IMG/VR virus record: IMGVR_UViG_3300019487_000074
Location: 1 to 31,426 of that record
Strand: one strand, 5' to 3'
Source: a virus
Length of the DNA: 31,426 nt
The notes under the pieces are model-generated. The model saw only the letters and a program-made list of their open reading frames with translations. It ran no database searches and had not been told where the DNA came from. Position 1 is the stretch's first letter. Each line of letters opens with the position of its first letter. The translations under genes were made by a program, and so were the position numbers. Shown here in pieces: positions 4,980 to 17,030 of this stretch.

Positions 4980-5300
4980 TTACTTGACTTTTAAGCCTAG
5001 AACAGCGAGTGCGATGTCGTCCCATTCACGCGGTAGCTTTGCTTCCGCGTCTAGAGCGTACCGGACCGAATCTGGATTCTCCGACTCGCAGTAGTACACT
5101 ACCTCGTAGTAGCTGCCGAAGTCATGTGGATTCGACTTGATCGAGAAGTAGGTTTCTCCCGGTTCCGGTCCGAGGGTTCTCCGGAGTTGCTCGATCAGGG
5201 CCCGGCATTCCCGCTTAGCCCGAACCGCGTAACCCTCGGAACCCACTTGAGCGCAGTCCTCATCCGACGGAGCACATCCGATACCGATGCAAAGTTTCAT
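4980..5300 (-). CDS. Hypothetical protein (106 aa)
   Basis: ATG at 5300 with AGGAAGTGA upstream. It has a compact mixed composition with several Cys in the N-terminal third (C-I-G-I-G-C and D-E-D-C-A-Q), then helix-like R-E-C-R-A-L-I-E-Q-L-R-R-T-L and a beta stretch Y-Y-E-V-V-Y-Y-C-E. It looks like a real folded small protein but matches nothing I recognise. It is the first gene of the leftward array after the control region. Confidence 0.6.
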   Translation of the reverse strand: MKLCIGIGCAPSDEDCAQVGSEGYAVRAKRECRALIEQLRRTLGPEPGETYFSIKSNPHDFGSYYEVVYYCESENPDSVRYALDAEAKLPREWDDIALAVLGLKVK

Positions 5301-5391
5301 GGTCTGTTTAGTCTCACTTCCTGACTCATCCGGTCTAGACTCCCGACGAACCCTAGCTGCGGATTGTTCCGAGATTAGACCAGAGGAACCG

Positions 5392-5746: not shown

Positions 5747-6146
5747 CTCTAAAGCTGAGAGGGTACGCCTATAACATACCCGCCAAACTCTCAATAAAAA
5801 ACACTAAACAAATGTTTGGTGGTTCGGGAGCCTACGGCTCCCTCTACCCAGTCCCGGGCCCCCCGGGCCCCCCCAGGTTCTGGGCACTAGTTTCTAGGCA
5901 CCCCCCTCTTAAAATCTTCTGCCGTCCCCGTCCCGTAAGTATGCGGAAAATAAGACCTTTCTTGAGGCCGAAGTCCCGGAGCGAAGCCACTCCCGTATTT
6001 TTTCCATTTTCCATTTCCCCAGGAGACCCCTTTCAATTTAATCAATAAAATCAAGCACTTACCTTGCTATCTGACAGTAATTCTGTTTTAATTTGGGGAG
6101 TAATTATGTCTTAATTTTAAACCCGTTTTAGTTTCGTTAAAGTTAT

Positions 6147-6196
6147 TAAACTAAAAAGGCCCCTTTAGCTTCGCTGTTTGAAGCGTTCGGGGGCCT
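6147..6196 (-). terminator. Intrinsic terminator for leftward transcription
   Basis: Read leftward, AGGCCCC pairs with GGGGCCT (arms at 6157-6163 and 6190-6196), with an inner GCTTC/GAAGC stem, and is followed at once by TTTTTAGTTTA. It lies about 450 bp downstream of the leftward promoter at 6644-6672 and faces it. There is no comparable T-run on the plus strand. Confidence 0.7.
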
Positions 6197-6218
6197 AGTC
6201 TTTCTTTCCAGGAGTCTT

Positions 6219-6583
6219 TTCAGAAGCCTTTAGGCTTCTTAAGGAACCTGAAAGGTTCCTCAGACTCCGCCGGGGAGCCCGTTGGGCTCCTGGGGGGGTT
6301 CCTGCTCGGCCCCTCCGGGGCCTCGGGGAGGTTTCTGCGGGAGCCTTTCAGGCTCCGGGGTGTTCTATAGCTTTCCTCGGAGCCTTGGGAAAGGCTCCTT
6401 TCTCCTGGCTACTGAGGGCCCGTTGGGCCCCCGAAGGGGGAGATTCTATCCCCCTGAGATGAAGGTGGGGCGGGGACCCGTTGGGTCCCCGGGGAGGATC
6501 GGAGAGTTAGAGATCCTCCCCCCGGGACTCGGTTTTTGCTTTCGGGCCTTTTTCAGGCCCTCAGCGAGGCCCGTAGGGCCGAA
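6219..6583. repeat. Dense array of short palindromes
   Basis: About eleven separate stem-loops in 365 bp, each 5-9 pairs with a 2-6 base loop. Examples: AGAAGCCT/AGGCTTCT (6222), AGGAACC/GGTTCCT (6242), GGAGCCC/GGGCTCC (6274), GGCCCC/GGGGCC (6308), GGAGCCT/AGGCTCC (6341), GGAGCCTT/AAGGCTCC (6379), GGGCCC/GGGCCC (6416), GGGGACCC/GGGTCCCC (6472), GGAGGATC/GATCCTCC (6493), GGGCCT/AGGCCC (6544) and GGCCC/GGGCC (6568). They share a design but not a sequence. The whole array lies inside the leftward promoter-terminator unit. Confidence 0.75.
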
Positions 6584-6634
6584 GCTATCTGGCTCGTCAC
6601 TGCTCGCCGCGTTATTATGGATTTCTATTTCCAT
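6446..6634 (-). CDS. Possible small protein, nearly leaderless
   Basis: A 62-codon frame whose ATG at 6634 lies only nine bases past the -10 box of the leftward promoter, so its mRNA would be almost leaderless and has no ribosome site. The N-terminus (M-E-I-E-I-H-N-N) looks protein-like, but residues 20-60 are written through the palindromes and are rich in Gly and Pro. It may be a real short gene invaded by hairpins, or just the 5' part of a structured non-coding RNA. Confidence 0.3.
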   Translation of the reverse strand: MEIEIHNNAASSDEPDSFGPTGLAEGLKKARKQKPSPGGRISNSPILPGDPTGPRPTFISGG

Positions 6635-6643
6635 TCTCTATAT

Positions 6644-6672
6644 ATTATACCATACTTTTACCCCCTTGTCAA
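6644..6672 (-). promoter_or_regulatory. Sigma-70 promoter, leftward
   Basis: Minus-strand TTGACA (6667-6672), a 17-base spacer and TATAAT (6644-6649), a perfect consensus with a TG one base upstream of the -10. It shares TTTTACTTGAC and the block AAAAGTRTGGTATAATA with the rightward promoter 230 bp away. It drives the hairpin-rich unit that ends at 6147. Confidence 0.85.
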
Positions 6673-6902
6673 GTAAAAAATTTTACCCCTTTAGAATCAA
6701 ACACTTCCAATACACCCCGAAGAGCTTAAAAAGCTCTTCGCTAACCAAATTTTTTTACCAAAAACCAAGTCTAAAAGAGCTTTATAATCAGGTACTTGCA
6801 CGTTTTTCTGAAAAACCTCCCAAAACTACCCTCCAGGAGTCTAAAGACCCCGCTTTCTTTCTCCTTTATAATCAAGTATTTACATTACACTAAAGATTTT
6901 AC

Positions 6903-6936: not shown

Positions 6937-7033
6937 AGAGAATAGAAACAGATAAGGAAAAGGAGCCCCTCGGGGCTCCGGAGGGATTTTGTGAGGAACC
7001 TTTTAGGTTCCTTAAAAAGTCCGGAGGACTTTT
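6937..7033 (+). promoter_or_regulatory. Hairpin-rich leader with ribosome site in a stem-loop
   Basis: Three consecutive stem-loops follow the promoter: GGAGCCCC/GGGGCTCC (from 6962), AGGAACC/GGTTCCT (from 6994) and AAAAGTC/GACTTTT (7016-7033). The third holds the GGAG ribosome site of the 7032 gene in its loop and the first bases of its start codon in its 3' arm, so folding should lower translation of that gene. Confidence 0.5.
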
Positions 7034-7202
7034 GTACTACCTTTACGAACTAGCCCCTTGCCCGAAGTGCTCTAAGAATCTCTGGAAACGGGACGTTCTC
7101 CACGAAATGCGGTCCCGGGGCCAAAACCGTTCCTTGAGGTTTGCTTGTGTTTACTGTGGTTTAGACCATTTCTCGTCTAAAATTCAAATCCAGGAGGATT
7201 AG
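7032..7202 (+). CDS. Zinc-ribbon protein (56 aa)
   Basis: Start set at TTG 7032, four bases after GGAGG, because the longer frame upstream runs through the promoter and leader hairpins. The protein begins M-Y-Y-L-Y-E-L-A and has C-P-K-C and, about 27 residues later, C-V-Y-C, a standard four-Cys zinc ribbon with a basic segment between (M-R-S-R-G-Q-N-R). The stop is two bases before the next start. First gene of the rightward operon; zinc ribbons in this position often act on transcription, but that is inference. Confidence 0.6.
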   Translation: MYYLYELAPCPKCSKNLWKRDVLHEMRSRGQNRSLRFACVYCGLDHFSSKIQIQED

Positions 7203-7204
7203 TC

Positions 7205-7705
7205 TTGTTTCGTTCCGTTACCGTTCCCGTTCTTCCCGTTCCCGTTCTGAGGAATCTTACAGATTCCTTAAGACTTTCAGTCTCAGCGCTTCTCACCCTT
7301 CTAGCGGCTCTAGGAGCCGTTTCTAGCCCCGTCGGGGCTGACTACACCCCTACCCCCATCCCCGGGGAACAGAAGGCCACGGAGGGGCCGCAGAGCCCCT
7401 CTAGTGCTGTTTTTCCGTTTAGGAACGCCCAAGAGCTGGTAGGGGAGGACTTTTCCCAGAAGTGGGTGGTTTGCGGGGAGACCCCCGTCCTACAACTCAA
7501 GCAGAACCAGCTTCCTGGCTGGGTAGCCTTCTATGAATCCAAGTCCCAGAGGTTTATCGCTGCCTACTACGACGGTACTATCTGGCACCACCTCGTTACT
7601 GGTAAGGTTAACCCGAATACCCTGGACCTGGAGGAGGTCGTAGTTAAGCCTTTTGATTATTCGGTTCAGCCCTGCGACCTTCTGGTTCCCGACATCAAGA
7701 CTTGA
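7205..7705 (+). CDS. Secreted hypothetical protein with signal peptide
   Basis: TTG start at 7205 with CAGGAGGATTA just upstream. Residues about 22-45 form a signal-peptide core (L-R-L-S-V-S-A-L-L-T-L-L-A-A-L-G-A-V) ending in V-G-A, a good cleavage site. The mature part has a Thr/Pro-rich linker, then a beta-rich domain with W-V-A-F-Y-E-S-K-S-Q-R-F and a matching Y-Y-D-G-T-I-W-H-H. An in-frame double-hairpin element encodes about residues 15-27, just ahead of the hydrophobic core, and further palindromes fall at 7304, 7327 and 7380. Its stop codon belongs to a second element. It may be a periplasmic or surface protein acting on the host; the function is unknown. Confidence 0.65.
   Translation: MFRSVTVPVLPVPVLRNLTDSLRLSVSALLTLLAALGAVSSPVGADYTPTPIPGEQKATEGPQSPSSAVFPFRNAQELVGEDFSQKWVVCGETPVLQLKQNQLPGWVAFYESKSQRFIAAYYDGTIWHHLVTGKVNPNTLDLEEVVVKPFDYSVQPCDLLVPDIKT
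7248..7285 (+). repeat. Double-hairpin element, copy 1 (inside a gene)
   Basis: TGAGGAATC, a five-base loop, GATTCCTTAAGACT, a short loop and AGTCTCA: two stem-loops joined by TTAA. It is translated in frame as part of the secreted protein. The same arms with other loops occur at 7703 and 18450. Confidence 0.7.
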
Positions 7706-7743
7706 GGAATCTGTAAGATTCCTTAAGACCCTAAAAGGGTCTG
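7703..7743 (+). repeat. Double-hairpin element, copy 2 (supplies a stop codon)
   Basis: TGAGGAATC, loop TGTAA, GATTCCTTAAGACCC, loop TAAAA, GGGTCTGA. Its first three bases are the TGA stop of the secreted-protein gene. The arms match copy 3 at 18450 almost exactly while the loops differ. Confidence 0.75.
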
Positions 7744-7763
7744 AAAAGTCAGGTGAAACCGGG

Positions 7764-8294
7764 TTGAAACCGGACTGGCGGGTCTTAGAGGCCAAGGTAG
7801 CCGAATACTTCGGCGGAAAACGCCGAAAGATGAGGCGCTACCAGCTACAAGGTCCCGACGTTAACAGCCCCTTGGCTGACTTGGAGGTAAAGCTACGGAA
7901 CCGAATACCCAGCTGGATCGTGAAGTACTTGAAGAAAGCCCGCTCCTGGAGAGGGAGCCGGGGCTTAGGGTTCGAGCCCCAGGGGCTCTCCCTGAGGACC
8001 GAAGGTCCGAAAGGGAAGATAGTAGCCGTAGTCTTGTACGAGAAGCCGAAAGACTCTCTCTCCCCCCTCTCCCTCCCCCCAAGGCCCGAAGAGGGCGTGG
8101 CCCTTCTATCTACCAGCGACCTGAAGGAACTCTTGACGACCTACGGCCAGTTTCATTTAGAGCTATCCTCTCGGAACGAACCGGAATCAGCTTCGACTCC
8201 TCCGGGGAAGGTAAGGTCTCGTTTAGCGTCGCGGCGTCAGAAGCCCCGGAAGTCGTTAAACTCCTTCTCTACGCCAACCGAGTCTTTAAAGTAA
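7764..8294 (+). CDS. PD-(D/E)XK nuclease-like (resolvase-like) protein
   Basis: Start taken at TTG 7764 with AGGTGA six bases upstream; the frame stays open further left but only through the double-hairpin element. Layout by residue: E-A-K-V-A-E-Y-F-G-G-K-R-R near 10, then G-P-D-V about 35, L-E-V-K-L-R-N-R-I-P-S-W about 45-56, and K-I-V-A-V-V-L-Y-E-K about 90. The E helix, P-D and (L/V)-E-x-K order is the PD-(D/E)XK nuclease core, of the kind annotated as Holliday-junction-resolvase-like in phages. Palindromes at 7976 and 7996 are translated as an insert between the E-V-K helix region and the next strand. The Ser/Arg-rich C-terminus looks disordered. Confidence 0.55.
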   Translation: MKPDWRVLEAKVAEYFGGKRRKMRRYQLQGPDVNSPLADLEVKLRNRIPSWIVKYLKKARSWRGSRGLGFEPQGLSLRTEGPKGKIVAVVLYEKPKDSLSPLSLPPRPEEGVALLSTSDLKELLTTYGQFHLELSSRNEPESASTPPGKVRSRLASRRQKPRKSLNSFSTPTESLK

Positions 8295-8311
8295 CCATCA
8301 CAGGAGATTAA

Positions 8312-8797
8312 TTGGCTCACGAACAATCCGAAACTATTGAGCGTGATGGTAGGTATTTCAATGTCTATGGACACGCCCTACCCCAAGCTGGCCAGACACT
8401 ACCAAACGAACCACTTAGGGGTTACTCAACCTTAGAAGAGGCGGTTAACGCTGCCAAGGCTAGAAGCGAGAGTTTCCGTAACCACGAGAGGAGATTACCA
8501 GTTATGCCCTTTCCTTATCCTTCCTCAGATCCTACTCCCACATCTCAAGGGCTGGGTAACCAGACCCAGGGCCCTTCGGGCCTGGGCGGCATAGCGGCTC
8601 TGCTTAGGTCGCTACCCCCCGATTTCCTTATGCGACTCTTCCAGAGGACCCAACCTACCCCGGCTGACGTTACCATGACTCCGGAGCAGTTGCCCGCTAC
8701 AGCAGCGGGAGCGGCCGAGGAAGCTCAGGCGGTAGGGGCCCGTACTCCTTTTGAAGGGGGTAAGGAGCTGTTCCGTCGCCGGAGGCAGGTTTATTAA
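8312..8797 (+). CDS. Hypothetical protein (161 aa)
   Basis: TTG start at 8312 with CAGGAG upstream. Residues 1-55 look like a folded domain (E-R-D-G-R-Y-F-N-V-Y-G, then Y-S-T-L-E-E-A-V-N-A-A-K-A-R). The rest is Pro/Thr/Gln-rich and probably flexible, with L-L-R-S-L-P-P-D-F-L-M-R-L-F as a short helix and a basic end. A palindrome (8567-8586) is translated within the linker. The stop is one base before the Tad2 start. No family is recognised. Confidence 0.55.
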   Translation: MAHEQSETIERDGRYFNVYGHALPQAGQTLPNEPLRGYSTLEEAVNAAKARSESFRNHERRLPVMPFPYPSSDPTPTSQGLGNQTQGPSGLGGIAALLRSLPPDFLMRLFQRTQPTPADVTMTPEQLPATAAGAAEEAQAVGARTPFEGGKELFRRRRQVY

Positions 8798-8798
8798 G

Positions 8799-9059
8799 AT
8801 GACTTTCTCAGAAGCTCTTAAATCACTGAAATTTGGTGGCAAACTAGCCAGAGCCGGGTGGAACGGCAAGGGAATGTTTATCTTCCTAGTTCCCGGTTCT
8901 GAGTTCGAGGTGAACCGACCCCCTCTTCTAGGCATCTACCCGGAGGGTACTAAGATCAAGTACCGCGACCATATTGATATGAAGACAGCTCAAGGTGACG
9001 TAGTGCCTTGGGTGGCTTCCCAAACTGATCTTTTAGCAGAGGATTGGGTGGAGGTCTAA
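8799..9059 (+). CDS. tad2: Tad2 anti-Thoeris protein (DUF2829)
   Basis: An 86-aa protein starting at ATG 8799, chosen over the upstream GTG-type starts because family members begin M-x-F-x-E-A-L. It carries the DUF2829 signatures in order: S-E-A-L-K-S-L-K-F-G-G-K-L-A-R, then W-N-G-K-G-M-F-I-F-L-V-P-G-S, R-P-P-L-L-G-I-Y-P-E-G-T, H-I-D-M-K-T-A-Q-G and W-V-A-S-Q-T-D-L-L-A-E-D-W. Known members bind and sequester the cyclic ADP-ribose-type signal made by Thoeris immune systems, preventing effector activation. The length matches the family and all conserved blocks are intact, so it should be functional. It sits with the early rightward genes, before the packaging genes. Confidence 0.9.
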   Translation: MTFSEALKSLKFGGKLARAGWNGKGMFIFLVPGSEFEVNRPPLLGIYPEGTKIKYRDHIDMKTAQGDVVPWVASQTDLLAEDWVEV

Positions 9060-9062
9060 AAG

Positions 9063-9245
9063 TTGGCCTACGTAGACCCTAAGACGGATTACGTTAAACG
9101 ACACGAAGCCTTTCTTAACAAACTGAGAGCGAGTGAGACTGCCGATGCCAGCGGGAGACGTAAGGCCCCTTACCAAAAAGCAGCGCGCCTCAATACTGCG
9201 CGCGTTCGTAAAAGTAGCCTCGAAGAAACCGTGGCTGCTGACTGA
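9063..9245 (+). CDS. Small basic hypothetical protein
   Basis: TTG at 9063, three bases after the Tad2 stop, with GGAGGTC upstream. The first 25 residues look genuine (D-Y-V-K-R-H-E-A-F-L-N-K-L-R-A-S-E), the rest is Arg/Ala-rich. The last 110 bases overlap the next gene in another frame, which is long for a phage overlap. Either both are real, or one protein is split by a frameshift near 9140-9180. Confidence 0.4.
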   Translation: MAYVDPKTDYVKRHEAFLNKLRASETADASGRRKAPYQKAARLNTARVRKSSLEETVAAD

Positions 9246-9474
9246 AGCTTGGGAAAGAGGTCTGGAGGGAACCAAAGCCCTGGCTTACCTAGAACTAGGC
9301 GCCAGGCTTCTAAAGGAAATAGGACGAGACGAGTCCAAGGCTCCTCCCCAGGTAGCCATTATCCTTTCTGCTGGTTTAGACGTGAAGAAGCTTAAGCAAG
9401 CTAAGATTATCGAGGCGAGTCCGGCGGCTCTCAGCCCGGCTCCAGAAGTAGCGGAATCCTCGAAGAAAAGGTAG
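9133..9474 (+). CDS. Candidate terminase small subunit
   Basis: Frame with GTG at 9133 and ATG at 9145; the latter may be the true start. The protein has L-T-K-K-Q-R-A-S-I-L-R-A-F-V-K-V-A, probably a DNA-binding helical pair, then A-Y-L-E-L-G-A-R-L-L-K-E-I-G-R-D, a long helix, and a Lys/Ala/Pro-rich tail. Size, all-helical pattern and place immediately before the large terminase fit a small subunit, but no signature proves it. Its last codons and its TAG stop lie within the first copy of the 74-bp duplication, so the C-terminus has probably been altered. Confidence 0.5.
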   Translation: MRLPMPAGDVRPLTKKQRASILRAFVKVASKKPWLLTEAWERGLEGTKALAYLELGARLLKEIGRDESKAPPQVAIILSAGLDVKKLKQAKIIEASPAALSPAPEVAESSKKR

Positions 9475-9683
9475 AACTCAGCATTGACTACCGTCCCGCT
9501 GAGACTGCCAAGAGCTTTATTGAGGACCCTACATTTGGATTCCTTACGGGCCCCAAAGGGCCCGGAGAAGTAGTACAGGAAAACCTTGCCGTCCAAAGTT
9601 AAGGCCAGTGAAGAAAAGGTAGAACTCAGCATTGACTACCGTCCCGCTGAGACTGCCAAGAGCTTTATTGAGGACCCTACATT
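9462..9683 (+). repeat. 74-bp perfect direct duplication
   Basis: Positions 9462-9535 and 9610-9683 are identical over 74 bp. Copy 2 encodes terminase residues 9-33. Copy 1 lies across the end of the upstream gene and continues into a diverged stretch with a perfect palindrome (GGGCCC-CAAA-GGGCCC) where copy 2 has the Walker A codons. The 74 bp between copies holds the terminase TTG start. Confidence 0.9.
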
Positions 9684-11392: not shown

Positions 11393-13303
11393 GTGCCTAG
11401 CCTCGAAGAGATGAGACAAGACCCGGCGGCCTCCGCCGAGGGTCTAAACAAAGCTAAATCTCTAAGTACTACCCATCTTTCAGAGCTGGTACGGGTCCAG
11501 AAGATGGAGTCGGAGAAAGCTACCCAACGACTCCGAGAAAACCAGAGATCTTGGTGGAGGCTCTGGCAGAACGACGTAGACTTTCCAGGCAAAGAGGATT
11601 GGCAAACCAAGCTCTGGATACCTAAACCATACAGTGCTGTGGAGCAAGCTACCGCTCTTATTGAGCGTTCCCTCTTGGAATCCAGGGAATCCTTTGGGGT
11701 CGAAGGCTTTGACGCCAGAGACCAGGAACGAGCCGCTAAGCTTTGGACACCCCTTTTGAGGCTGTTCCTAAACAACGCCGGGTTACCTTACAAGTTCTCG
11801 GACGGTACCAAGGTTGGATTCATTACCGGGGTAGCCGGATACTGGAAGCTTCGGCCCGTTTCTGTTTCAGTTCCGAAGCTTATGTCTGCTTCACTAGATC
11901 CTATGACTCAGAGAGCACAACCCCAGTTCCAATATGGAACCCGTACCTTTCTAGGTATAGATTTGGTAATGCCTTGGAATATCTACAGGGATCCGGACTC
12001 TCGTCCCAGAGAGAATTTCTCTGGTTCTTATCTGTACCACTGCGAGTGGAAGGATCGTTCCGCTCTCCAGCAGATGGGCCAGATGGGTTGGGATCAGCAA
12101 GCCCTCTCTGAATTGCTATCGGCCCCCGATAAGGGCCTAGGCAATATGTATGCTACCGAATCGCAGCGTCATGAATACGAGCGGAAGCAGTACAGTTTTG
12201 AGCGCCACAAGTTCCGGAAGTCTTATCTAATAGATGAGGCTTGGTTAGATATTCTAGACGAGAATGGAGATGTTGTTTTCCCCAATGCTCTACTGGTGCA
12301 CAGCAATGGCAAGATCTTGTACGGACCTGTGGACAATCCTATTTGGGCCACTGATCTCAGCACTGGTCGCCGCAAGTGGCCTTTTATTGCTGGTAGTCCT
12401 GTCGTACATCCTTCTAGGTTTGAAGGACGGGGAATCCTAGAGCAGGATGCTCCCCTCTCTGCCTTGTTCTCTAACGTGTTCATGTTGTGGGCTGACGGAC
12501 TTAACTGGGCGGTTAATCCTCCCACAGAGATTCACCAAGACGCCTTGGTGGACTGGGAGGATCTAGACCACTACCCTGGTAAACTCTGGGTTAAACACAC
12601 CGAGTCTCCAGCTCTTATCCCGGCTAACATGGGTAAGATGGACACTAACGAGATCCTAGCAGCCCTTAACTACATTGATGCTAACCGACAAAACGTCAAC
12701 TTTGTTACGGACTTCGCGGTTGGTCTTCCGGGTAGCCGAAGCGATATAACCAAGGGTGAGGTTCAGATCAAGACATCTCAGTCCTTGGCCATCTTTGAGG
12801 CTATGGGAAAGAACCTGGAACACGCTGGTAGACAGCTTGTAGAGCTTAGCTACGACATGATCCTACAGTTCTTTGATGCCTACTCCGATCCCAACATAGG
12901 TCGGATCTTGGGTCCAGAGGCTCAGATGGTTCTAGCTCAGATGCCTATTGAGGAGCGTATTGAGGCTCTCCAAGGCAACTACGACTTTGTGTTTACTGGA
13001 GTTACCCAAGCCCTTCAGAAGTCAGAGGAGCTTCAAAAGATCATACAATTCGCTACTTTAGCTGCTTCCCCAGGTTACCAAGGCTATACGAATCCCTCTC
13101 AGGTACTCAAGGTGATCTCGGAGCGTATGGGAGTTAATGAGCGCCTTGACGTATTTGAGGAGCCTATGATTCCAAAGTCTCAGGTAGATCAGATGATTAA
13201 CCAGATACAGATGCAACTCGCGGCCGGTCCAGCAGCAGGGGCAGAAGCCGGTTCCCCGGCTCCTGAGGTACCCCCCGGACCGACTCCACCTCCGGGAGGT
13301 TAG
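11393..13303 (+). CDS. Portal protein
   Basis: A 636-aa protein with GTG start at 11393, following terminase as usual. Features of podovirus-type portals: a helical N-terminus, W-W-R-L-W-Q-N-D-V-D-F-P-G near 55, Q-A-T-A-L-I-E-R-S-L-L-E-S-R about 90, the N-I-Y-R-D-P-D-S-R loop near 205, and a long helical C-terminal domain (A-I-F-E-A-M-G-K-N-L-E-H-A-G-R-Q-L-V-E-L) ending in a Gly/Pro tail. The dodecameric ring is the DNA entry channel and tail attachment site. The TAG stop shares its last base with the first base of the following tRNA. Confidence 0.8.
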   Translation: MPSLEEMRQDPAASAEGLNKAKSLSTTHLSELVRVQKMESEKATQRLRENQRSWWRLWQNDVDFPGKEDWQTKLWIPKPYSAVEQATALIERSLLESRESFGVEGFDARDQERAAKLWTPLLRLFLNNAGLPYKFSDGTKVGFITGVAGYWKLRPVSVSVPKLMSASLDPMTQRAQPQFQYGTRTFLGIDLVMPWNIYRDPDSRPRENFSGSYLYHCEWKDRSALQQMGQMGWDQQALSELLSAPDKGLGNMYATESQRHEYERKQYSFERHKFRKSYLIDEAWLDILDENGDVVFPNALLVHSNGKILYGPVDNPIWATDLSTGRRKWPFIAGSPVVHPSRFEGRGILEQDAPLSALFSNVFMLWADGLNWAVNPPTEIHQDALVDWEDLDHYPGKLWVKHTESPALIPANMGKMDTNEILAALNYIDANRQNVNFVTDFAVGLPGSRSDITKGEVQIKTSQSLAIFEAMGKNLEHAGRQLVELSYDMILQFFDAYSDPNIGRILGPEAQMVLAQMPIEERIEALQGNYDFVFTGVTQALQKSEELQKIIQFATLAASPGYQGYTNPSQVLKVISERMGVNERLDVFEEPMIPKSQVDQMINQIQMQLAAGPAAGAEAGSPAPEVPPGPTPPPGG

Positions 13304-13380
13304 CTGACGTAGCTCAAAGAAGGTAGAGCGACTGCTTTGTAAGTAGAGGGTTGGGGGTTCAAATCCTCCCGTCAGCGCCA
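13303..13380 (+). tRNA. tRNA-Thr (anticodon TGT)
   Basis: GCTGACG at the 5' end pairs perfectly with CGTCAGC, followed by discriminator G and an encoded CCA. The D stem is GCTC/GAGC, the T arm GGGGG-TTCAAAT-CCTCC. The anticodon loop TTTGTAA gives anticodon TGT, reading ACA (Thr). The first pair of the anticodon stem is an A-A mismatch. It lies inside the virion operon, its first base being the last base of the portal stop codon, so the tRNA must be cut out of the structural mRNA. Confidence 0.9.
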
Positions 13381-14705: not shown

Positions 14706-14817
14706 ATGGCACAGGAGTTTCAATGGACTCTCGACGCGCCTGCGGGAGTCTTTAAGAATTGGGCGCTCAGCTCCAAGATTCGGGAGGCGGCTATTGCCGA
14801 ATCTAAGTTCATGCAGT
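14706..14817 (+). CDS. Major capsid protein (N4-gp56 type), exon 1
   Basis: ATG at 14706 with AAGGAG upstream encodes 37 residues (M-A-Q-E-F-Q-W-T-L-D-A-P ... A-E-S-K-F-M-Q) before a TAG that lies in intron 1. The exon ends ...GCAGT; the final T is the first base of a split Tyr codon completed by AT at 15491. A 5' exon ending in T fits the conserved U-G pair of group I splice sites. Unspliced mRNA would give only a useless 37-residue peptide. Confidence 0.8.
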
Positions 14818-15490
14818 AGGGCGTAAGCCCCATGCTGCCCCGGGCTGTATGCTGGAAAATCCTAAGAGCCTATCCGTGCTACTTAGCAAAAATCGGAGGG
14901 ATATATGGACAATCAGCAGGAAATTCTTACTGATTCTGAAGCAGGATGGTTAGCCGGTATTATAGAAGGTGACGGCTACATTACCATCATCACCCAGAAG
15001 AATGCTAAGGTAAAGCGCAATTCTGGACTGGTGGTTGCACCTAAGATAGGGATCACCAATCAGGATGGTCTCATCATTGAACGAGCATCTGACTTGTTTA
15101 AGAAACTAGGTGCAAGTGGTATTTGGCTAGTCACTGAAAAGGCTAAGGATTGTAGCCACAAGATCAACGCAGATATACTACATCTTAGTACTGCGCGTAT
15201 CTCAGCGTGCTACAAGATTCTAATTATGATCCTTCCCCATCTTGCAGGGCAGAAGGCAGGCCGAGCACGTCTCCTTCTGAAGTTTGTGGAGAGCCGATTG
15301 GCCCACAAACACTTTCCCTACAACGCCGACGAGCTACAAATCATCAAACAGTTTGTAGAGATGTATCCAACTTGGCGGCGTAATAAAGGATTAGAGAAGT
15401 TCCTCAACGACTATACGCCTGGGACCGAAGGCTCATAAGTTCGGTCAAGATATAGTCTGTCCTTACGGGAGACCGTAAGCTAACATAGAG
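14818..15490 (+). mobile_element. Group I intron 1 in the capsid gene
   Basis: 673 bp splitting a Tyr codon (T|AT). Group I marks in order: a candidate guide GCTGC (14834-14838) that pairs with exon GCAGT, the core block TGCTGGAAAATC near 14850, a P7-like CAACGACTATA near 15402, a P8-like GACCGAA/TTCGGTC stem, AAGATATAGTCT near 15447, and a P9-like hairpin CTTACGG-GAGA-CCGTAAG (15462-15479) with a GNRA loop. It ends TAACATAGAG, with the terminal G expected of group I. The core blocks recur in intron 2. It carries a LAGLIDADG endonuclease gene whose last codons form part of the ribozyme core. Confidence 0.85.
14905..15438 (+). CDS. LAGLIDADG homing endonuclease, intron 1
   Basis: A 177-aa protein with its own ribosome site (GGAGGG). 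A single LAGLIDADG motif, W-L-A-G-I-I-E-G-D-G, occupies residues 15-24, so it should work as a homodimer; the last acidic D23 is the metal ligand. Family-like features follow: P-K-I-G-I-T-N-Q-D about 52-60 and L-P-H-L-A-G-Q-K-A-G-R-A about 112-123. The enzyme would cut intronless capsid alleles at the exon 1-exon 2 junction and so spread the intron. The protein appears intact. Confidence 0.85.
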   Translation: MDNQQEILTDSEAGWLAGIIEGDGYITIITQKNAKVKRNSGLVVAPKIGITNQDGLIIERASDLFKKLGASGIWLVTEKAKDCSHKINADILHLSTARISACYKILIMILPHLAGQKAGRARLLLKFVESRLAHKHFPYNADELQIIKQFVEMYPTWRRNKGLEKFLNDYTPGTEGS

Positions 15491-15665
15491 ATGTGGACGT
15501 GGAGCCGGGCTACGGCAAGAAGAAGGGTGAGAGTGTCACCATCACCCGAGTTAAGAATATTCCGGAGCCGACGGTGGCTACCTTCACAGAGGGCCAGCGG
15601 GTTCCGATCGACACGTTCAGTCTCAGCACGAAACAGATTACTGTTACGTACTGGGGCCGCGGGAT
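15491..15665 (+). CDS. Major capsid protein (N4-gp56 type), exon 2
   Basis: 175 bases, in frame after joining T|AT: Y-V-D-V-E-P-G-Y-G-K-K-K-G-E-S-V-T-I, then P-E-P-T-V-A-T-F-T-E-G-Q-R-V-P, ending T-V-T-Y-W-G-R-G and AT of a split Ile codon (AT|C). The K-G-E/D-x-V-x-I strand and the T-V-T-Y-x-x-G-R-G turn are recognisable in N4-gp56-like capsid proteins. Read alone this segment has no start and runs into a stop seven bases after the splice site. A 67-codon frame starting with ATG at 15491 is out of phase and not real. Confidence 0.8.
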
Positions 15666-16360
15666 CAACTAAGGTCCGGCGATCAGGTAACTGATCGCGT
15701 CTAAATCAGCCCAAGTGCTGGAACATCTCGACGAAGCTCATTCCCGGGGAGGAACAATATGAGCGGAGAGACAATCAGCAGGGAAGTGCTTTTAGGTTGG
15801 TTTGTTGGTTTGTTTGATGGTGAAGGTAGTATCGGATTCGTTCTCAGAGACAGAAGGTATCAGTTGCCTCGTATCACGCTGGCAATTGAGAGCGAAGCCG
15901 GAGCTATGCGGTGTAAGAAGTTTCTGGTTGAGTTTAACCTACCGTATTGGCAGGGTAAGCAAAAGCCCCGAAAGAATATGAAAGCTACGATGTACGACTT
16001 CCATTTCTTTGGTTATCGTACGATAAAGAAACTTCTAGATGTTATCACTCCATACCTAATCATCAAACAGGAACAAGCCGAAATTGTTAAGGGGTTCGTG
16101 GAGTACCGGATAAGCCTAGGAAATGAGAACGATATTCGGACGCTTTCAGAAGAAGAGAAAGCCAGGCTTATAGGGGTACGAACCTTAGCAATACAACGCC
16201 TAGATGAGTTAAATAAAAAGGGAATTCGGGTACGTAAATGGCCCGACGGTACCCTTACTCGTCGAGCACAGCCCTCAACGACTACAGAGGTTGATTCCCC
16301 GTCGTCTGTCGGGGAAATGGTATAGTCTGGTCTAGTTGGCGACAACTAGTTAACACAACG
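15666..16360 (+). mobile_element. Group I intron 2 in the capsid gene
   Basis: 695 bp splitting an Ile codon (AT|C). The 5' exon ends GGAT, which pairs with GTCC at 15675-15677 and the preceding G, placing U opposite G. Core blocks parallel intron 1: GTGCTGGAACATC near 15717, TCAACGACTACA near 16275, CCCCG/CGGGG stem, GGTATAGTCT near 16319, then CTAGTTG-GCGA-CAACTAG (16332-16349), again GNRA-capped. The end TAACACAACG aligns with intron 1's TAACATAGAG and finishes with G. The LAGLIDADG gene inside is quite different from that of intron 1. Confidence 0.85.
15759..16325 (+). CDS. LAGLIDADG homing endonuclease, intron 2
   Basis: A 188-aa protein with GGGGAGGAA upstream of its ATG. One LAGLIDADG motif, W-F-V-G-L-F-D-G-E-G, covers residues 14-23 with E22 as the expected metal ligand, followed by R-I-T-L-A-I-E-S-E near 45 and F-F-G-Y-R-T-I-K-K-L-L about 84-94. 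A single-motif enzyme acts as a dimer. It shares the fold but little sequence with the intron 1 enzyme, so the two introns probably arrived separately or exchanged endonuclease genes. The last 15 codons lie in the intron core. Confidence 0.85.
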   Translation: MSGETISREVLLGWFVGLFDGEGSIGFVLRDRRYQLPRITLAIESEAGAMRCKKFLVEFNLPYWQGKQKPRKNMKATMYDFHFFGYRTIKKLLDVITPYLIIKQEQAEIVKGFVEYRISLGNENDIRTLSEEEKARLIGVRTLAIQRLDELNKKGIRVRKWPDGTLTRRAQPSTTTEVDSPSSVGEMV

Positions 16361-17030
16361 CGAGTACAGCGAGCAGGCTGATCTCCTCAGCCACTTCGAT
16401 ATCACTGACAAGATCCAGCGTAAGCTGAAGCAGCAAATGGGTCTGGTCATGGATACCGCTTCGGCTGCGGCTTTCAAGACTGCTCAGATCAAGTTCATCC
16501 CAACCTCCGTGACGGGTGGTACGTTCGATACGGATGGTACGCCTTCTACGCAGGCTACTGAGAACCTGACTGTGTCCCATGTGAAGGTCATTCGTGACTA
16601 CATGATGGATACGATTCACGTTCCTGGGTGGCGCGGTGGGGATCGGTACGTCTGCCTGGCTTCTACCAAGGCGCTTCGTGGTCTGAAGAATGATCCGGAG
16701 TTCTTGCAGTGGAGACAGTTTGGACAGTCCGAGGAGTCCTTTACGCGGGGCATGGTTGGTGTTATCGAGAACATTGAGTTCATCGAGGTCAACCACACCA
16801 ACGCACTTTCTAACTCTAAGGGTCTCGCTGGTGTTCTAGGTGAGGCCGTCTTCTTTGGTGATGATGCGGTGGCCATGGCTGTAGTCATGGACCCCGAGCT
16901 TCGAGCCGCGATCCCTGGTAACTTCGGTCTACAGTACGCTGTTGCTTGGATCGGGATGCTTCAGTTTGGTATCGTTTGGGATACCAACACTGACGGTGAG
17001 GCCCGCATTATTCACGTCACTTCTTCCTAA
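16361..17030 (+). CDS. Major capsid protein (N4-gp56 type), exon 3
   Basis: 670 bases completing the split Ile codon and then encoding E-Y-S-E-Q-A-D-L-L-S-H-F-D-I-T-D-K to the stop at 17030. Joining 14706-14817, 15491-15665 and 16361-17030 gives 957 bases: 318 residues, no internal stop. Recognisable blocks of the N4-gp56 capsid family include I-R-D-Y-M-M-D-T-I-H-V-P, G-D-R-Y-V-C-L-A-S-T-K-A, the loop F-L-Q-W-R-Q-F-G and E-A-V-F-F-G-D-D-A-V-A-M-A. About 320 residues is normal for an HK97-fold shell protein. A frame starting at ATG 16437 is only the 3' part of this exon. Gene callers will fragment this capsid gene. Confidence 0.8.

Follow-up and report, generated by a model that had tools for sequence, protein, structure and literature searches.

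The window analysed here covers 31,426 bases, the whole of one viral record in IMG/VR. Its gene order is TerL-portal-capsid, with a portal of the SU10 type, and the capsid gene lies in three pieces. The exons 14706-14817, 15491-15665 and 16361-17030 join into one frame of 957 nt (318 amino acids plus the stop codon); they are separated by inserts of 673 nt (14818-15490) and 695 nt (15666-16360), each preceded by a T and ending with a G. Reading resumes at A15491 after T14817 and at C16361 after T15665, so that the split codons are those of Tyr38 (T/AT) and Ile96 (AT/C). The three segments, the two gaps and the splice sites put forward in the initial annotation are thus exact. The features of the locus are as follows.

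14706-14817, + strand: capsid exon 1, from Met1 to the first base of Tyr38
14818-15490, + strand: group I intron 1, 673 nt with a terminal G (Rfam, held-out model R3, helices, empty alleles)
14813-14838, + strand: intron 1 P1, exon GCAGU (14813-14817) with guide GCUGC (14834-14838), U-G wobble at the splice site
14839-14845, + strand: intron 1 P3 5' strand, pairing with 15417-15423
14850-14918, + strand: intron 1 P4 and P5 extension, P4 being 14850-14855 with 14913-14918
14905-15438, + strand: LAGLIDADG ORF 1, 177 aa, motif LAGIIEGDG at 14950-14976
15409-15479, + strand: intron 1 P7, P8 and P9, fold z -3.2
15491-15665, + strand: capsid exon 2, 175 nt
15666-16360, + strand: group I intron 2, 695 nt with a terminal G (held-out model R3, helices, empty alleles)
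15662-15677, + strand: intron 2 P1, exon GGAU (15662-15665) with GUCC (15674-15677), U-G wobble at the splice site
15679-15698, + strand: intron 2 P2 hairpin, 8 bp, GUAA loop
15704-15711, + strand: intron 2 P3 5' strand, 8 bp with 16289-16296
15716-15780, + strand: intron 2 P4 and P5 extension, P4 being 15716-15721 with 15775-15780
15759-16325, + strand: LAGLIDADG ORF 2, 188 aa, motif FVGLFDGEG at 15801-15827
16280-16349, + strand: intron 2 P7, P8 and P9, helices by direct inspection
16361-17030, + strand: capsid exon 3 with the stop codon, matching TIGR04387 by itself (E 6e-8)

The joined protein matches PF25209 (Phage_capsid_4) with 29.2 bits, above the cut-off of 27, and TIGR04387 with 51 bits (E 1.3e-13), under the cut-off of 60; it is for this reason termed N4-gp56-like. 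The PF25209 match and the position after the portal agree with the N4-gp56 type first assigned to the gene. The capsid is also truncated by automatic calling, as had been foreseen: the caller gives only a 197-aa C-terminal piece. The similarity of the portal to its relatives stops about 45 residues short of the portal end. A tRNA-Thr gene (anticodon TGT) is found at 13303-13380, its first base being also the final base of the portal's stop codon, and a tRNA-Trp gene (CCA) lies on the minus strand at 588-658, close to the left end of the window.

Six relatives from IMG/VR (L002-L007) have a capsid frame that is unbroken at both sites, with 61-78% identity to the joined frame, and the alignment is indel-free at both joins. 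They are syntenic with the window, with terminase, portal, two small genes and the downstream genes in order, some of these contigs being cut short. Apart from one base, the 16 bases preceding site 1, TCYAAGTTCATGCAGT, match those of the window in five of these relatives, and site 2 falls within conserved GRGIEY codons. Alignment to capsid homologs had been named as a way to see if these continue through the inserts: none of the six does so, the capsid frame passing from exon to exon with no indel at the joins. By this comparison the six relatives are empty alleles of both intron sites. Three of them (L003-L005), with intact capsid genes, carry at about 6967-9645 a row of 17-20 tRNA genes between two genes; this array is absent from the window, where the same flanking genes are about 40 bases apart.

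Direct inspection located P1 with its U-G wobble, P3 (7-8 pairs), P4, P7, P8 and P9 in both introns; P6 is short in both and has no score of its own. In intron 1, P1 has an inner hairpin (14819-14830), bases 14828-14833 pair with the 3' exon at 5 of 6 positions (P10), P7 is formed by 15409-15415 with 15451-15457, P8 by 15423-15429 with 15440-15446, and P9 by 15462-15468 with 15473-15479. The corresponding helices of intron 2 are P7 (16280-16284 with 16323-16327), P8 (16295-16301 with 16310-16316) and P9 (16332-16338 with 16343-16349); a P10 was sought there and no pairing was found, so that P10 is present in intron 1 only. When the partner of P3 was swapped for those of other introns, the pairing was as good as with its own partner in 2 of 160 and 0 of 160 swaps, and base pairs of P5 and P9 show wide covariation in the intron class described below. 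The full set of core helices, the U-G pair at the 5' splice site and the terminal G all support the claim of two group I introns in the capsid gene.

Against the Rfam model RF00028 (gathering score 50 bits), intron 1 scores 35.2 bits (E 7.8e-7), which alone excludes chance. Intron 2 is matched weakly (E 0.029 at 19.9 bits), and its 5' end is misplaced in the match; both introns are below the gathering score, intron 2 clearly. A covariance-model search for group I introns had been suggested as a check, and a held-out model of the 5' domain (R3), trained on 58 other introns with the window excluded, matches both, with E 1.2e-11 for intron 1 and E 1.8e-9 for intron 2, the 58 having been chosen by a pattern that holds 20 letters from the window's own P4 strands. 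In 89 kb this model gave exactly two matches, the two introns, and it had no match in the six relatives. For intron 2, chance is excluded because of the empty alleles together with the match to a model trained without the window, subject to the way in which its training introns were chosen. An in-frame TAG is formed across the 5' junction of intron 1 and an in-frame TAA occurs shortly past that of intron 2; these stops rule out a reading of the inserts as inteins.

Each intron holds one ORF with a single LAGLIDADG motif in which the acidic residue is kept (the D of GDG in ORF 1, the E of GEG in ORF 2). Family searches place them at a distance from known profiles: the best Pfam scores are 17.5 bits (gathering 23.1) and 13.9 bits (gathering 22.5), with ORF 1 reaching E 0.008 against PF00961, below the cut-off, and both match phrog_5046 in PHROGs (E 1.4e-9 and 1.2e-9). 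The AF2 models (pLDDT 86.4 for ORF 1 and 82.4 for ORF 2) both present the LAGLIDADG fold (alpha-beta-beta-alpha-beta-beta-alpha), and Foldseek searches of the PDB matched both with I-CreI, I-MsoI and I-CvuI (to I-CreI, E about 3e-7 for ORF 1 and 2e-7 for ORF 2). As modelled, both ORFs are I-CreI-like single-motif LAGLIDADG nucleases, and the motifs, models and structural matches confirm that there is one such gene in each intron. They share fold and size with I-CreI and I-MsoI, but the identity is about 18%, and these two enzymes come from algal organelle introns; the present ORFs are predicted nucleases. Single-sequence scans of the viral contigs gave no relatives of either nuclease; among cultured phage records ORF 1 had one weak match and ORF 2 none, and two members of the intron class had one relative and none. 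The phrog_5046 family is labelled 'HNH endonuclease'; it matches 49 of 70 intron ORFs among the matches listed, many of them with LAGLIDADG motifs. This label looks wrong, being contradicted by the two members modelled here.

The ORFs run into the ribozyme. ORF 1 overlaps the 3' strand of P4, P6, the 5' strand of P7, the 3' strand of P3 and P8, and the UAG stop of ORF 2 belongs to the 3' strand of P7, an overlap known as 'core creep' from other introns (PMC3073962). The Shine-Dalgarno sequence of ORF 1 (GGAGGG, 14895-14900) is inside the predicted P5 stem, and the AUG of ORF 2 (15759-15761) is paired in the predicted P5. Pairing of the start regions suggests that intron folding may limit nuclease translation, for which there is precedent in other phage introns (PMC3073962). 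The 3' strand of P4, GACAAUCAGCAGG, occurs at 14911-14920, at 15773-15782 and at the same place in the contigs L014-L132; each of its three frames is used to begin a different nuclease (DNQQ, TISR, QSAG).

Taken as a whole, these data make it very probable that the window is from an uncultivated tailed phage with two mobile group I introns in its major capsid gene, for which we propose the following scheme of splicing and homing. Each intron would fold in the late capsid pre-mRNA, guanosine would attack at the U-G pair and the exons would be joined. Capsid would be made from the spliced mRNA only, because translation of unspliced RNA would run into an in-frame stop at either 5' junction. If exon 2, with its 175 nt, were skipped, the reading frame would be lost. 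Each LAGLIDADG protein would act as a homodimer and cut, at its own site, a capsid allele that lacks the intron; the intron with its ORF would then be copied into the cut allele during mixed infection. The folded intron would dampen nuclease translation, the ORF 1 Shine-Dalgarno and the ORF 2 AUG being paired in P5 and both ORFs spanning the core.

Three other readings of the locus are to be weighed. The introns might be immobile, with endonuclease ORFs that are inactive or serve as splicing maturases. This is possible but rather unlikely: the maturase fate is frequent among LAGLIDADG proteins (PMC3073962) and both ORFs are divergent, below the Pfam cut-offs, yet each motif retains its acidic residue, the frames are full-length and intronless relatives exist as targets. 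A broken capsid gene (a pseudogene, a chimeric assembly or capsid pieces with chance ORFs between them) is very improbable; the source is indeed a single metagenomic contig, but capsid residues are neither lost nor duplicated at the joins, both of which coincide with valid group I splice sites, and the two ORFs between the pieces are intact and of a selfish kind.

The third reading concerns the origin of the pair: one intron could derive from the other by copying within the capsid gene, as they are of the same class and have identical P4 strands. That identity, however, is common to more than 100 contigs, and the two introns have different 5' leaders, with a P2 hairpin of the kind described above in intron 2 only. 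Moreover, BLASTP aligned the two nucleases well at the motif only (16 residues), and 0 of 200 bootstrap trees joined the two ORFs, in a nuclease tree with long branches, above all that of ORF 2. We regard such copying as improbable, and the tree likewise disfavours a tandem intron duplication. Within the preferred reading of two mobile introns, separate acquisition is favoured because the nucleases align only at the motif and never group in the bootstrap trees; the two introns were probably acquired separately.

Several published systems resemble this one. In LittleE, a Cluster J mycobacteriophage, splicing of a group I-type intron in the capsid gene was established by RT-PCR and N-terminal sequencing (PMC3706429). 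As in the window, the major capsid gene is split, with a U before the intron, a G at its end and an I-CreI-related LAGLIDADG ORF; unlike in the window, there is a single intron, the ORF is on the opposite strand and the capsid is that of an HK97-type actinophage (PMC3706429). The MCP gene of a crAss-like Zeta group phage (cMAG OLRF01000054), also uncultivated, is in five pieces with four inserts, the pieces being separated by group I intron domains as here; this is however a gut phage that is not N4-gp56-like, and the intron domains are recognisable in three of the four inserts (PMC7886860). Bastille-type phages have many introns, one with a LAGLIDADG ORF, and exon skipping in one terminase (PMC11878797), and an intron nuclease can take part in competition between phages (PMC11620839). 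Judged from its sequence, the capsid intron pair is real and well-defined, and its kind is already known from published precedents.

To determine how common such introns are, viral and genome contigs were searched with the P4 DNA pattern TGCTGGAAN{30,60}ACAATCAGCAGG. It matched at least 119 IMG/VR contigs and at least 117 genome contigs, many of the latter from Patescibacteria. The contigs were chosen by intron RNA and not by host gene, and some are near-duplicates, so that the tallies that follow describe this intron class only. Among the matches listed, 70 ORFs in viral introns include matches to LAGLIDADG_3 (38), LAGLIDADG_1 (15), LAGLIDADG_2 (9), Endonuclease_7 (3), GIY-YIG (1) and HNH_3 (1). 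The initial annotation had considered LAGLIDADG less usual than HNH or GIY-YIG; in the matches listed for this class it is the dominant enzyme. For 69 downstream exon frames, again among the matches listed, almost every one of the larger families is annotated 'major head protein', capsid genes being the commonest hosts, and the NCBIfam capsid matches listed are podovirus-type (10), N4-type (10), Caudo_2 (6) and HK97 (2), with some overlap.

In eight other contigs with the same intron class, only introns without an ORF reach the Rfam gathering score, so that ORF-bearing copies are missed by default annotation. The contrast exists within one contig, L029, between its ORF-less intron (5051-5381) and its first intron (6091-6787). 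The class as a whole would be missed because the ORF-bearing copies are under the Rfam threshold, PHROGs labels the enzymes 'HNH' and the records of cultured phages contain almost no close relatives of them. We are somewhat inclined to see the window as a sample of a large class of group I introns with ORFs in uncultivated phages, for the most part unannotated, with the major capsid gene as favoured host and an I-CreI-like LAGLIDADG as usual enzyme.

The main interest of the locus is this class of capsid-dwelling, LAGLIDADG-bearing introns, which standard tools miss or mislabel. In practice, gene callers truncate the capsid genes of environmental phages and the enzymes bear a misleading family label. 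Few late products of a phage are as abundant as the capsid protein, and two introns in its gene would imply efficient splicing; the phage would be well suited to testing what mobile introns cost and how co-infecting phages interfere with one another by targeting the capsid.

Contigs with several introns are common among the matches listed. L088 and L109 have, like the window, N4-gp56-type capsid genes with two introns of this class each, and a LAGLIDADG motif ORF is found in all four introns; they are from different, uncultivated phages and are interrupted at other capsid sites. A third N4-type capsid gene, that of L029, has two introns, the second ORF-less. Compared by eye, the insertion sites of L029, L088, L103 and L109 differ from those of the window. 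With at least two other N4-type genes so arranged (L088 and L109) and the published capsid precedents, a capsid gene with two introns is not the unusual arrangement it was first taken for. Two further contigs have more: L097 (3204-4012, minus strand) has three introns within about 810 bases, all lacking a large ORF, and in L074 (7578-11043, minus strand) four introns are found in 3.5 kb.
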